Source: a virus. From it: a DNA stretch of 24,658 nucleotides. Position 1 is the stretch's first letter. The number at the start of each line of letters is the position of its first letter. The stretch spans positions 1 through 24,658 of IMG/VR virus record IMGVR_UViG_3300009684_000166. One strand, given 5' to 3'. Below are positions 4,817-15,927 of the stretch, piece by piece. The notes beneath the pieces are model-generated. The model saw only the letters and a program-made list of their open reading frames with translations, was not told the origin of the DNA and did no database searches. Position numbers and translations under genes: made by a program.

Positions 4817-5779
4817 TTAGATTCCTGATTTAAACTTCACACATTCGTTTGTGAAACCTACATTTACACCTACTTTAAAAGAAACCTTTGTGCGGATTTC
4901 ATCGTTATCTTCTGAATACCAAACACGATAATTTGATTCTTCGTTTTCTAAATCAACAGCTAAAGCCATATTTGAAAGTGAAATTGCGTAAGAATCGCCT
5001 GTTGTATTCAAACCATTTACAGGCACAACCTCGATATTTGTTGCTGGTAAGATAAAAGATTGAGCGTTTACATCCTGTGGATTGTAGCTAAACATATTTA
5101 ATGCTCTGTAAGCCAAGATTAACAAACGATACCAATCGTAACCAACAAATATTTTAACATCTCCCTTTGCCATAACTTCAGCAGGAACAGCCTTATAAAT
5201 TCCTTCAGTAGCCGCTATAACATTTGATTGAGTAATTGTTGAAATTGTTGCTACTCCTGTATAACCAGAAACGTTCGCATCTGTTGGAGAACCAGCATCG
5301 ATTTGCTTAATCAAACCATCAAACTTTGTAAGATTTGCACCGCCACTTCCTGTAATATCTCCTTGCCAAATTGAAGTTTCAATTTGAGCGGCTATACGTG
5401 CGTTTTTCTTTGCAAGATATGCTTCTAAAAATTGAGCGTTTCCAAAATCGGTATAAGTGCTACCTGCTCTCAAAGCCTCTTGAGTAAATTTCGCTTCAAA
5501 GTTTTTAGGGCAAATTGTTTCACTTACTTGAATCTTACCAACTGTAATCGTTCTTTGTGTAAATGAAGTTGTGCCTGATGGAGAATAACCGCAATCATCT
5601 GTTTGAAATACAGCATCGGTATCCATTAAAGGAATTTGAACCGCTGATTTTGCTTTAGGGATAACGATACCGCCATCCATAATTAATTGCTGAGTTTTTG
5701 CACCTATAACTGCGCTCGTCAATAACGGCTCAACAAGTTGTTTTGTATAATTCGATAATGTGCCTAATGATAATGCCAT
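4817..5779 (-). CDS. Major capsid protein (HK97-fold)
   Basis: 320 residues. It has the layout expected of a phage major capsid protein: an N-terminal helical arm (about 1-35), a region with TDDCGYSPSG and the ICPKNFEAKF motif (about 60-100) that I associate with Bacteroidota phage capsids, a long helix NAQFLEAYLAKKNARIAAQ, and a C-terminal beta-rich domain with a VFVGYD-like KIFVGYDWYRLL core. It follows a scaffold-like gene and a protease gene, which is the usual maturation set. It forms the icosahedral shell by self-assembly. ATG at 5779 is preceded by an A/T-only leader (AAATTAAAATAAA) typical of strongly translated Bacteroidota genes. It is followed by a strong terminator. Confidence 0.9.
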   Translation of the reverse strand: MALSLGTLSNYTKQLVEPLLTSAVIGAKTQQLIMDGGIVIPKAKSAVQIPLMDTDAVFQTDDCGYSPSGTTSFTQRTITVGKIQVSETICPKNFEAKFTQEALRAGSTYTDFGNAQFLEAYLAKKNARIAAQIETSIWQGDITGSGGANLTKFDGLIKQIDAGSPTDANVSGYTGVATISTITQSNVIAATEGIYKAVPAEVMAKGDVKIFVGYDWYRLLILAYRALNMFSYNPQDVNAQSFILPATNIEVVPVNGLNTTGDSYAISLSNMALAVDLENEESNYRVWYSEDNDEIRTKVSFKVGVNVGFTNECVKFKSGI

Positions 5780-9087: not shown

Positions 9088-9648
9088 TCAAACAACCTTT
9101 TTTACTTTGTCAAAATTGGCAACCAATAAACCCAAAGAAATTATAAGCAATCCGATTCCAGTTGATATAATTGCACTTTTTAAACTACCAAACGCTTTAC
9201 TCCCTACATCCTTAACAACCGCGCCCAAATTTTTAAAACTATCCCTAGCCTCCAATACTGAATTTAAACCCTGACTTAAAGCCATCGCGGATTGTACTTT
9301 TACAAGCGTTTTTTCTAGGTCTTTTGATTCGCTACCAAATAACGCCTGAGCGCCTTGTAATGCAGAAAACCCACCCGCAACACCTTGTAATGAACTACCA
9401 AACGCTTTAAACTTTGCGTCTGGATTAAACGCGTCCGTCATTGCTTTAGCATCGCCAATGCTATCTTTTAAATTTGCTACTTTTTTAGCTGCTTTTACCG
9501 CCTCGTCGGATGTATCTCCAAACTTATCGCGCATAGCAATTAACTCCGCGTTCGCTTGTTTTAATTGAGATTTTATCGAGCCTACCGACTTTTCAGGTTG
9601 TGAGCTATCAACCGTTATTTTTATTCCTACTTCAGTTGTTGTTGCCAT
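9088..9648 (-). CDS. Tape measure protein, N-terminal part ending at an in-frame TGA
   Basis: 186 codons from ATG at 9648. The N-terminus (VGIKITVDSSQPEKSVGSIK, then KQANAELIAMRDKFGDTSDE) is the typical helical start of phage tape-measure proteins, followed by Ala/Lys-rich helices and one hydrophobic stretch (IISTGIGLLIISLGLLVANF, about residues 159-178). It stops at TGA in the middle of a helix after DKVKKVV, and the same frame carries on at once as clear tape-measure sequence. TGA is a normal stop elsewhere in this window (ATGA overlaps at 12197, 13378, 21752 and 23380), so this is a one-off nonsense change or a base error, not a recoded genome. The start overlaps the preceding stop by 1 base (TAATG). 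Confidence 0.85.
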   Translation of the reverse strand: MATTTEVGIKITVDSSQPEKSVGSIKSQLKQANAELIAMRDKFGDTSDEAVKAAKKVANLKDSIGDAKAMTDAFNPDAKFKAFGSSLQGVAGGFSALQGAQALFGSESKDLEKTLVKVQSAMALSQGLNSVLEARDSFKNLGAVVKDVGSKAFGSLKSAIISTGIGLLIISLGLLVANFDKVKKVV

Positions 9649-13381: not shown

Positions 13382-14004
13382 TTAAAAATATTAATTGTTA
13401 TTGTTTTACCTATCGCTTCGCCTATTTCCTTTTCAAAACCTTCTAAACTTTTCTTAATTGTAGGCTCGATAAAATTACGCGGTTTAATACCGTATGATTT
13501 TATATTAAAAATCAATCTATTTAAATTTCTATCAAACTCACTAATTCGTTTAAATTTTTTTTCTACTCCTTGCGCACCATATTTTTGAACGTCTGTTGTT
13601 CTAACCTTTGCGTTTGAACTTCGCAACCATTTTGACAAAGATTCGCGCCCCTCTTTGCTCATTGTATAACTATTCTTAAACTTAAATCTACTTTGTGGCG
13701 ATTTACTAATCCAACCCATAACCCCCTCGTCTTGAAACTTTGCGTAATATGGAAATCTAATATTTAAAGTTGCCGAGCTACCCGTTTGCACAATTTCATA
13801 ATCCACATTTTCAATATTCCCAGATGCGATAATCTTTTTACTATTTAATTGCTCTATCCAAACATCTTTAAATAATTCTGCACGCTCAATTAATAAAGCG
13901 TTTATTTCCTTTGCCGTTACTTCGCTAAAATTAAAACTACCCGTACTGCCGACAAACCCATTATCAAGCTGTATTTTTTGCGATTGTGTAATGTTAATTG
14001 GCAT
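13378..14004 (-). CDS. HK97-gp10-like tail/neck protein
   Basis: 208 residues. The central pattern (IRFPYYAKFQDEGVMGW) and the C-terminal KPRNFIEPTIKKSLEGFEKE are typical of HK97 gp10-like proteins: a tyrosine-containing strand, a Gly-containing turn, an R-x-F-(I/L) before the last amphipathic helix. These proteins join head and tail or terminate the tail tube. At 208 residues it is longer than the usual 110-150. The extra part includes a basic stretch around residues 115-160. It overlaps the frameshift-extension frame of the chaperone by 11 bases and the next gene by ATGA. Family assignment is moderately sure. Confidence 0.72.
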   Translation of the reverse strand: MPINITQSQKIQLDNGFVGSTGSFNFSEVTAKEINALLIERAELFKDVWIEQLNSKKIIASGNIENVDYEIVQTGSSATLNIRFPYYAKFQDEGVMGWISKSPQSRFKFKNSYTMSKEGRESLSKWLRSSNAKVRTTDVQKYGAQGVEKKFKRISEFDRNLNRLIFNIKSYGIKPRNFIEPTIKKSLEGFEKEIGEAIGKTITINIFK

Positions 14005-14296
14005 ATTTCTTTAATAGTTTTTTTTCTGCTTCATTATCTATTTCGCGTTTCATTTTTAAATAACTCAAATCATTTAGAAACTGAAACACAGGCAAATCCC
14101 AAGCCTCGTTTATGCTAATTCCTTCAAATTCCGATACCATTTTGCAGTTATAAAGCCATCCGTAAACTCGGCTAAATTCATCAGCACTTGCTCCACCTTC
14201 GCCGTGTCCGTTGCTATTGTTTTGAAATAAGAAGCCGAAGCCTGAATTGATTTGCTGAAAACTGCGTAAAAAAAAACAGCGGAATGATACGCTACT
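13994..14296 (-). CDS. -1 frameshift extension of the tail assembly chaperone (GT-like)
   Basis: This frame is open from 14296, just after a TGA at 14299-14297, to TAA at 13996-13994. It lacks a start codon before ATG at 14140. After the slippery run it encodes 91 codons: a Gly/Asn-rich linker (NNSNGHGEGGASADEF), then VYGWLYNCK, EFEGISINEAW and PVFQFLNDLSYLKMK. Such Gly-rich linkers followed by an LP(V)-x-FL-DL-Y-K pattern are what I recall of the second domain of chaperones in Bacteroidota phages. The -1 frame is exactly the one reached from the chaperone gene by slippage at T9, giving a fusion of about 250 residues (159 + 91). A separate 48-aa product from ATG 14140 is the alternative. Confidence 0.85.
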   Translation of the reverse strand, partial: SSVSFRCFFLRSFQQINSGFGFLFQNNSNGHGEGGASADEFSRVYGWLYNCKMVSEFEGISINEAWDLPVFQFLNDLSYLKMKREIDNEAEKKLLKKYAN

Positions 14297-14745
14297 TCAA
14301 AATCTATATCCAGCATATCATCAGCAACTTGTTTATGATTCTTTTCTTTGCGCTTCAATCCCTTCAAAGTAAACTTTAAAGGGGTACACATAGTCGCCAT
14401 GATCTTGTGAAGGTTGCCGATTACGTCTTCGCTATACGTCGCTAGCTCAACATAACGTCCCGCGTTCATTGGTGGCTTGGCTAAATCATATTCCAACAAA
14501 TACAAACGACCTTTAACCGATACATACTTTTGCGGTTTCTTTTCGTCAAGTTCTTTGCCATACTTTTCAAACTTTTCGTTAATTGTTTTGCATAGCTTAT
14601 TAAACTTTTTTAAAGGCATCTTGTCAACCTGTGCATCGCTCAACCCTGTAAATTCTTGAACTAACAAAGCGGACTTTTCAGCCTCGTTTATTTCCATTAA
14701 ACTAATCTTGTATAAATCTTGAAATTTTGAAATAGTAACCTTCAT
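14110..14745 (-). CDS. Tail assembly chaperone, zero-frame product (G-like)
   Basis: 211 residues, helical and Lys-rich, with no signal or membrane segment. It sits directly upstream of the tail genes, the usual place of the tail assembly chaperone that prepares the tape-measure protein for tail-tube assembly. Codons 157-160 read GTT TTT TTT TAC, so the heptamer T TTT TTT (14275-14269) is in the right register for -1 slippage, and the -1 frame after it is open to 13994. Without slippage the protein ends at TAA at 14112-14110. The pair of products matches the G/GT arrangement known in lambda and many siphoviruses. The start is 27 bases after the terminase stop and follows an A/T-only leader. 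Confidence 0.82.
   Translation of the reverse strand: MKVTISKFQDLYKISLMEINEAEKSALLVQEFTGLSDAQVDKMPLKKFNKLCKTINEKFEKYGKELDEKKPQKYVSVKGRLYLLEYDLAKPPMNAGRYVELATYSEDVIGNLHKIMATMCTPLKFTLKGLKRKEKNHKQVADDMLDIDFEVAYHSAVFFYAVFSKSIQASASYFKTIATDTAKVEQVLMNLAEFTDGFITAKWYRNLKELA
14268..14276 (-). promoter_or_regulatory. T9 slippery site for programmed -1 frameshifting
   Basis: Nine T on the minus strand within codons GTT TTT TTT TAC of the chaperone. The heptamer T_TTT_TTT lies at 14275-14269 in the zero frame, so both tRNAs can re-pair perfectly after slipping back one base. A TGA in the -1 frame at 14299-14297 and the zero-frame TAA at 14112-14110 bound the possible region; T9 is the only slippery heptamer I found in it. 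Confidence 0.85.
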
Positions 14746-14772: not shown

Positions 14773-15927
14773 TTAGATGAAGCGGTAAACTCCAGCGTGT
14801 TTATAATTGTTTTTGCATTTATTAGCCAAAGCCAAAGCATTAACGCAATCGTCGTGAAATCCTGTTGGCGCGTTATATCTTACACCTGTTGCCGTGTATT
14901 GATATTCGAATATTTCCAACTCACTTTTAATTTCGTTGTCGGGGTAAAATATTTCGCGTTTGTGTATAGATGAAGCAAGCGCCTCCATTAATTGTTGCTT
15001 GCTTGACGATGTATATTTAAACCCGTGCATAGCGTTAAAATGGCGTTGTAAATCTTCGGTTATTGCATCGCCTACGCCTGTGCTATCAATTACAACGGGT
15101 TTGCTTTTATCAAGCCTTAAAATCGTTTCTTTGGTTTGCGCCCAATCTTTTTGGAATCGCTCATAGTGTGCGACGTGTCCGTTTGCATCGAGTCCAATTA
15201 CAACCGTATAATCAAAGGACTTTGCCAAATCTATTCCATAATACGCAACAGGTAAAACGCTCAATGGTCGGATGCAATCAATAATATGCTGATTGCCAAA
15301 AGGATTGCTTGCGTTTTCCATAGCGTTAGCCATGTACTCTTGTTCAAATACTGCGGATGGCAATTGTGTTCGTGCGTCGTCTATTTCCGTGCGGTCAATG
15401 TACGGATTATCGTATGTGCTAAATTTAAACGATTGCCAATCGTTGCCGTCGGCTTTCATAAACAATGAGTAAAAATAATTCTTACCCTTTGGAGTTGATA
15501 CGAACAGCGCACGCCCTTTATAATCGGTTAAGGTAGGTCTTATTGAGTTTAACCACCCATCTTCTAAATTAGGGATAAATGAAGCCTCATCTATAATTAC
15601 TAAATGAAATTTACGCCCCCTTAAATTATCCAGACGTTCGCCTGTAAAAAACATTACGTTGCCATCGTTAGGAAATAATATCGTTAAATCAGATTTGTTG
15701 TTTTCAAAAGGTATTGTTTTGATTAGCTTGTTAAAAAAGGTTTTTGCTAGCTGGTAGGTAGGTGTAATGTATGCAACGCTATTACCCTTAATCGCCTCAA
15801 AGATTATTTCAAGTTGTGCGAGTTCCGATTTGCCAAACCTTCGCCCACACATAACAACCCTAAACCGCGAAGCGCAGTCGAATATTTTTTGTTGGTTAAT
15901 GTGTAATTCAGGAATTGGAATTTGCAA
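14773..15927 (-). CDS. Terminase large subunit
   Basis: 384 residues. ATPase half: Walker A CGRRFGKS (27-34), Walker B LVIIDEAS (109-116, D113 and E114), coupling motif STPKG (144-148). Nuclease half: acidic RNase H-fold residues in YYGIDLAK (D233), VVIDSTGVGD (D281) and HDDCVNALA (D359/D360). It packages DNA into the prohead through the portal and cuts the concatemer. The length is a little short for the family but both domains are complete. The start overlaps the preceding small membrane protein gene by 20 bases; no better internal start exists. Very sure. Confidence 0.97.
   Translation of the reverse strand: MQIPIPELHINQQKIFDCASRFRVVMCGRRFGKSELAQLEIIFEAIKGNSVAYITPTYQLAKTFFNKLIKTIPFENNKSDLTILFPNDGNVMFFTGERLDNLRGRKFHLVIIDEASFIPNLEDGWLNSIRPTLTDYKGRALFVSTPKGKNYFYSLFMKADGNDWQSFKFSTYDNPYIDRTEIDDARTQLPSAVFEQEYMANAMENASNPFGNQHIIDCIRPLSVLPVAYYGIDLAKSFDYTVVIGLDANGHVAHYERFQKDWAQTKETILRLDKSKPVVIDSTGVGDAITEDLQRHFNAMHGFKYTSSSKQQLMEALASSIHKREIFYPDNEIKSELEIFEYQYTATGVRYNAPTGFHDDCVNALALANKCKNNYKHAGVYRFI

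Follow-up and report, generated by a model that had tools for sequence, protein, structure and literature searches.

A conserved run of nine Ts marks a probable programmed -1 frame change beside the terminase gene of phages related to Flavobacteriaceae phages

Results

Gene content of the locus

The window, that is, the whole stretch of DNA that was analysed, is a virus contig of 24,658 bases with 34% G+C. On its minus strand, directly downstream of the gene encoding the terminase large subunit (TerL), lies a 211-aa ORF that contains T9, the sole run of at least nine Ts on the coding strand of the window, and a second open frame continues from this run (Table 1). An earlier note, made from the sequence alone, had described the run in its register, the TGA shutting the -1 frame just ahead of it, the 91 open codons that follow and the first ATG within them at 14140. 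All of these coordinates check out on the minus strand, and the long product of about 250 residues that had been predicted follows from them (159 + 91 = 250 aa).

Table 1. Features at the T9 locus, in positions of the window
Feature	Position	Strand	Basis
Terminase large subunit gene (TerL), directly upstream	14773-15927	-	phrog_2 E 1e-43; Terminase_6N/6C
0-frame ORF, 211 aa; short product (G-like)	14110-14745	-	Conserved in relatives; profile match to P12024S gp38 family
TGA shutting the -1 frame just upstream of T9	14297-14299	-	Sequence
T9 slippery run, register GTT TTT TTT TAC	14268-14276	-	Length of nine in 212 of the 215 distinct sequences
In-phase heptamer T_TTT_TTT within T9	14269-14275	-	Kept in relatives, the one with T8 (L206) included
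-1 frame extension, 91 codons and TAA (13996-13994); C-terminal part of the predicted 250-aa long product	13994-14269	-	Conservation; codon-position diversity
Dual-coding overlap (0 and -1 frames)	14110-14267	-	Codon-position diversity
First in-frame ATG of the extension (codon 44)	14138-14140	-	Not conserved as a start
Next gene, 208 aa	13378-14004	-	Faint connector/neck matches only

The next gene begins with an ATG that overlaps the end of the extension by 11 bases; from the 0-frame stop to this ATG there is a gap of about 105 bases. In most relatives the extension stop overlaps the start of the next gene, with the 0-frame stop at a median of 69 bases before that start. The tape measure ORFs are found at 9648-7762, several genes on and about 4.5 kb past the T9 gene. 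The order of genes between 1785 and 15927 is unusual: TerL, the chaperone-like gene, tail genes, tape measure and head genes, including a likely capsid gene at 4817-5779, with the portal last.

The hidden frame

On comparative evidence the hidden -1 frame is coding, since it is kept by relatives and the codon-position diversity switches frame at T9. Among 13 close relatives, diversity at 0-frame codon positions 1, 2 and 3 was 0.085, 0.047 and 0.301 upstream of T9, 0.076, 0.088 and 0.111 in the overlap and, past the 0-frame stop, 0.036, 0.252 and 0.053; in this last stretch, third codon positions of the -1 frame coincide with 0-frame position 2. This pattern indicates that constraint falls on just the 0 frame ahead of T9, on both frames within the overlap and on just the -1 frame beyond it. 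When the synonymous 0-frame codons of the window sequence were redrawn, the -1 frame of the overlap was open in 0.4% of draws, and the joint probability of an open overlap in 22 divergent relatives is ~1e-44 with clusters taken as independent; chance opening of the -1 frame is thus excluded.

A first scan with the extension recovered 41 related loci, at 47-95% identity where most of the length matched, and the use of alignments as queries reached many more loci, down to about 38% identity. Across the relatives the extension has a steady length of 77-95 codons, and the 0-frame tail after T9 ranges from 16 to 85 codons. The extension alone (91 aa) returned nothing of weight against the Pfam and PHROGs profiles, and its structural model (pLDDT 74) consists of a low-confidence linker followed by helices.

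The idea that translation of the second part begins at an ATG of its own, at 14140, as gp39 is annotated in Nonlabens phage P12024S, was rejected, and we consider it very improbable. An ATG stands at this position in 68 of 132 sequences, and the annotators of P12024S called such an ORF; the other sequences, however, carry CTG, TTG, AGC, TGT and other codons there. Two clusters (L104 and L108) have no ATG or GTG across the whole extension, and two more (L041 and L106) have none before codon 71. Extension residues ahead of the ATG position are conserved, some of them invariant, and an internal start would leave no reason for T9 to be kept. The earlier note had named two findings that would speak against a frame change, namely relatives that lack the slippery run and start the second part at their own ATG, and a want of protein similarity in the -1 frame upstream of 14140. 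The first was not seen, since relatives keep the run and the ATG is not conserved, and the second is contradicted by protein-level conservation of that very stretch. At the level of sequence, the comparison establishes that the site exists and is conserved, that both frames code and are conserved, and that the extension lacks a conserved start.

Conservation of the run and its exceptions

The alignment of relatives, a check that the earlier note had proposed, showed that the slippery run is retained. The 215 distinct sequences fall into 33 clusters when the extension is grouped at 60% identity; the site has exactly nine Ts in the same register in 212 of them, ten Ts in two and eight in one. 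In the T8 sequence (L206; GAT TTT TTT TAT) an outer T is substituted and T_TTT_TTT is untouched. One of the T10 sequences (L384), judged against its neighbours, arose by substitution of CTT to TTT; the other (L187) is found at the edge of its contig, and there the extension is read without a frame change. The residue that follows Phe-Phe in the 0 frame is Tyr, Cys, Trp or Ser, the first base of its codon always being T, and the -1 codon at that point encodes Leu, once Phe. One further locus (L305) seems to hold a partial tandem duplication of the chaperone-like gene, in which the T9 region occurs twice; this may be an assembly artefact.

Homopolymers are error-prone, and a sequencing error or decay in a single contig could in principle have produced an apparent frame change. 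The comparison across relatives refutes this reading, to which we give practically no credence, because the same run, register and pair of frames recur in the 212 sequences, which come from many samples and from cultured phages. The central claim of the earlier note, a programmed -1 frame change with an uncalled 91-codon extension, is therefore strongly supported by conservation in the 215 distinct sequences.

Cultured relatives and the wider family

The short form was modelled with AlphaFold2 (mean pLDDT 71), and a fold search with this model gave 33 viral matches with E below 1e-3, among them protein I6R9M9 of Nonlabens phage P12024S. In this phage gp38 (175 aa) lies directly after TerL and contains ATA CTT TTT TTT TAT in the same phase, and its -1 continuation reads LSFRERLRDLYPELY... 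The annotated gp39 (55 aa; L371 23663-23830) is the ATG-started end of this gp38 extension, so that the gp39 annotation and phrog_38404 probably describe a truncated product. Phage P12024L is 99% identical to P12024S over both parts. In PHROGs the two halves are phrog_32199 and phrog_38404, both of 'unknown function'. A scan with gp38 found 63 further loci, whose distinct sites comprise 39 with T9 and one with T10.

The two cultured phages and the window phage share homology of both halves, the same T9 in the same phase, and the position after TerL. They differ in that the cultured phages are very distant in sequence, the link being found by fold and profile comparison only, and in that P12024S is annotated with two separate genes and has a short form of just 175 aa. 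Profile comparison links the superclades over the short form (E 5e-16 over 170 columns, with Phe-Phe aligned) and over the extension (E 1e-8). Moreover, the viral protein A0A6J7WJY4 (243 aa) matches the short form (E 1e-7) and, in the same chain, also the extension (E 1.3e-4, 41% identity), which suggests that it is a natural fusion of the two.

A tblastn search of INPHARED with the family proteins gave no match, and two scans of GTDB genome contigs gave no confirmed relative, so there is no prophage and no direct host evidence from those contigs. The host of P12024S, a member of the Flavobacteriaceae, suggests that the window phage may also infect a host of this family.

Discussion

Proposed mechanism

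We propose that a programmed -1 change at T9 yields a 211-aa and a 250-aa form, and that the pair most likely works like lambda G/GT; taken together, we hold this to be very probable. Two proteins would arise from one gene, with residues 1-159 common to both. Most events would give the short form, and a minority the long form with its 91-aa C-terminal extension, predicted to be a flexible linker followed by helices. The shared part would act as a chaperone and the extension may be an added binding domain, with the ratio of short to long form set by slippage. We infer that both proteins arise, with the long one in the minority, and that the gene has a chaperone role.

Tail chaperone or other assembly factor

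The gene resembles lambda G/GT and HK97 gp13/gp14 in having a short form and a -1 extended long form from one start, with the shift near the end of the short ORF and an extension of roughly 90-150 residues. As in these chaperones, a short ORF is extended in the -1 frame with both frames under selection, and an in-phase slippery heptamer, T_TTT_TTT at 14275-14269, lies at the frame change. Of the label 'tail assembly chaperone' given in the earlier note, the frame-change architecture stands, while the name itself draws on weak profile matches. Phage_TAC_7, the sole Pfam match, aligns with residues 9-55 (E = 0.006) at 17 bits against a curated cut-off of 25 bits, and is matched by three of 18 family members, below cut-off; the 'tail' family phrog_166 is matched by seven of the 18, with a best E of 3.5e-4. 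The N-terminal match is a likeness to P2 E/E+E' and Mu gp41, the systems of the TAC_7 family, from which the protein differs in falling below the cut-off and in showing no match to Mu gp41 by hhalign.

The remark of the earlier note on the position of such genes, on the other hand, does not hold. In lambda and HK97 the chaperone pair is flanked by the genes for the major tail protein and the tape measure, whereas the T9 gene comes directly after TerL, with the tape measure well downstream. Sequence similarity to the lambda and HK97 proteins was not detectable: hhalign comparison of the profile with the single sequences of lambda G, HK97 gp13 and Mu gp41 revealed none. The slippery site of lambda, GGGAAAG, is also unlike the T9 run. 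In view of the missing matches and the different gene position, we suggest that the protein works like G/GT and do not claim membership of that family. By contrast, the family of P12024S gp38/gp39 is one to which the gene can be assigned by homology of both halves and by the shared site.

The same observations leave room for a different role, in which the frame change is real and the protein is some other two-form assembly factor, for instance in packaging or at the connector. The place after TerL in both the window and P12024S would suit such a role, as would the lack of a profile match to lambda G, HK97 gp13 and Mu gp41. Comparison with the PDB by sequence and by fold returned weak, unrelated matches only (best Z 3.5), with a known fold still possible, and the want of a significant fold match points in the same direction. 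Against this stand the matches to tail families, which are weak but recur in the family, and the two-form -1 architecture, which is typical of tail chaperones. We regard a role other than that of a tail chaperone as rather unlikely.

Slippage at the ribosome or at the RNA polymerase

The molecular step could take place at the ribosome, where two Phe tRNAs would slip by -1 on T_TTT_TTT, and this has in our judgement about an even chance. In E. coli, UUY ranks among the codons on which ribosomes slip more readily, and T_TTT_TTC is a good site (PMC4066793). Close behind comes transcriptional slippage on the nine Ts, which we rate a little short of even: RNA polymerase would add one U while copying the run, and ordinary translation of the resulting U10 mRNA would give the long form. 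Both may contribute.

Several observations favour the polymerase. The near-invariant nine Ts are two beyond what the heptamer needs, and nine is the length at which slippage and counter-selection have been reported in many bacteria (PMC1088944; PMC5009743). A conserved run of at least nine A or T at the frame change, as transcriptional slippage calls for, is thus present. Replacing T14269 by C would alter the encoded residue in neither frame and would leave T_TTT_TTC, and yet this change was never seen; its expected share is about 10% per lineage, and the probability of its absence is ~0.035 with 33 clusters and 0.002 with 60 clusters, if these are independent. In the genes of these phages, A runs of at least nine are depleted (six seen against 24.6 expected), with A5-A7 runs near expectation. 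Finally, an RNA stimulator of ribosomal slippage was not found: the search for a downstream structure gave an empty consensus fold and weak folding energy near the site, and no Shine-Dalgarno-like stretch upstream of it was obvious by eye. In the homopolymer of nine at the frame change, and in the lack of such a stimulator, the gene resembles Thermus dnaX, IS elements and mxiE, in which transcriptional slippage operates; it differs from them in that the phage site also contains a good ribosomal heptamer.

Other observations count against the polymerase. The T8 relative lost its ninth T by a substitution that left the heptamer intact, and the outer two Ts can be explained by coding, given the Val, Leu or Ile that the 0 frame encodes there and the Leu of the -1 frame. 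T runs of nine are too few for the depletion check that was possible with A runs (0.7 expected). There is also the precedent of other phages, all G/GT cases known to us so far being ribosomal. We therefore put forward only tentatively the proposal that in this phage lineage, of which some members have been cultured on Flavobacteriaceae, the ratio of the two forms is set by polymerase slippage on T9 and not by the ribosome. If that were true, it would be the first instance that we know of among phage tail chaperones.

Implications and minor observations

That tail chaperones can be frame-shifted is well established (Xu 2004 and others, cited in PMC5009743). What is new here is the family, the invariant T9, its unannotated presence in cultured phages and its place beside TerL. 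The open literature yielded no report of this case, although the authors of the P12024S genome may have noted the site. The family is a large and so far unrecognised group of genes with a frame change, carried by relatives of Flavobacteriaceae phages; it would explain phrog_32199 and phrog_38404 as halves of one protein and gives a lead to the function of genes termed 'hypothetical' in cultured phages. Whether T9 slips at the ribosome or at the RNA polymerase is a choice that is directly testable in a cultured phage.

Two further features of the window were noted. An in-frame TGA at 9088-9090 on the minus strand interrupts the tape measure gene (KKVV*NLIPGL), where three relatives (L008, L040 and L042) carry TTA or TTG (Leu); this TGA may be a recoded stop, an erroneous base or a nonsense variant. 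In the portal gene, an A10 run lies on the coding strand of the C-terminal part at 2123-2132 (VKKKIVS), in genomes in which long A runs are depleted.
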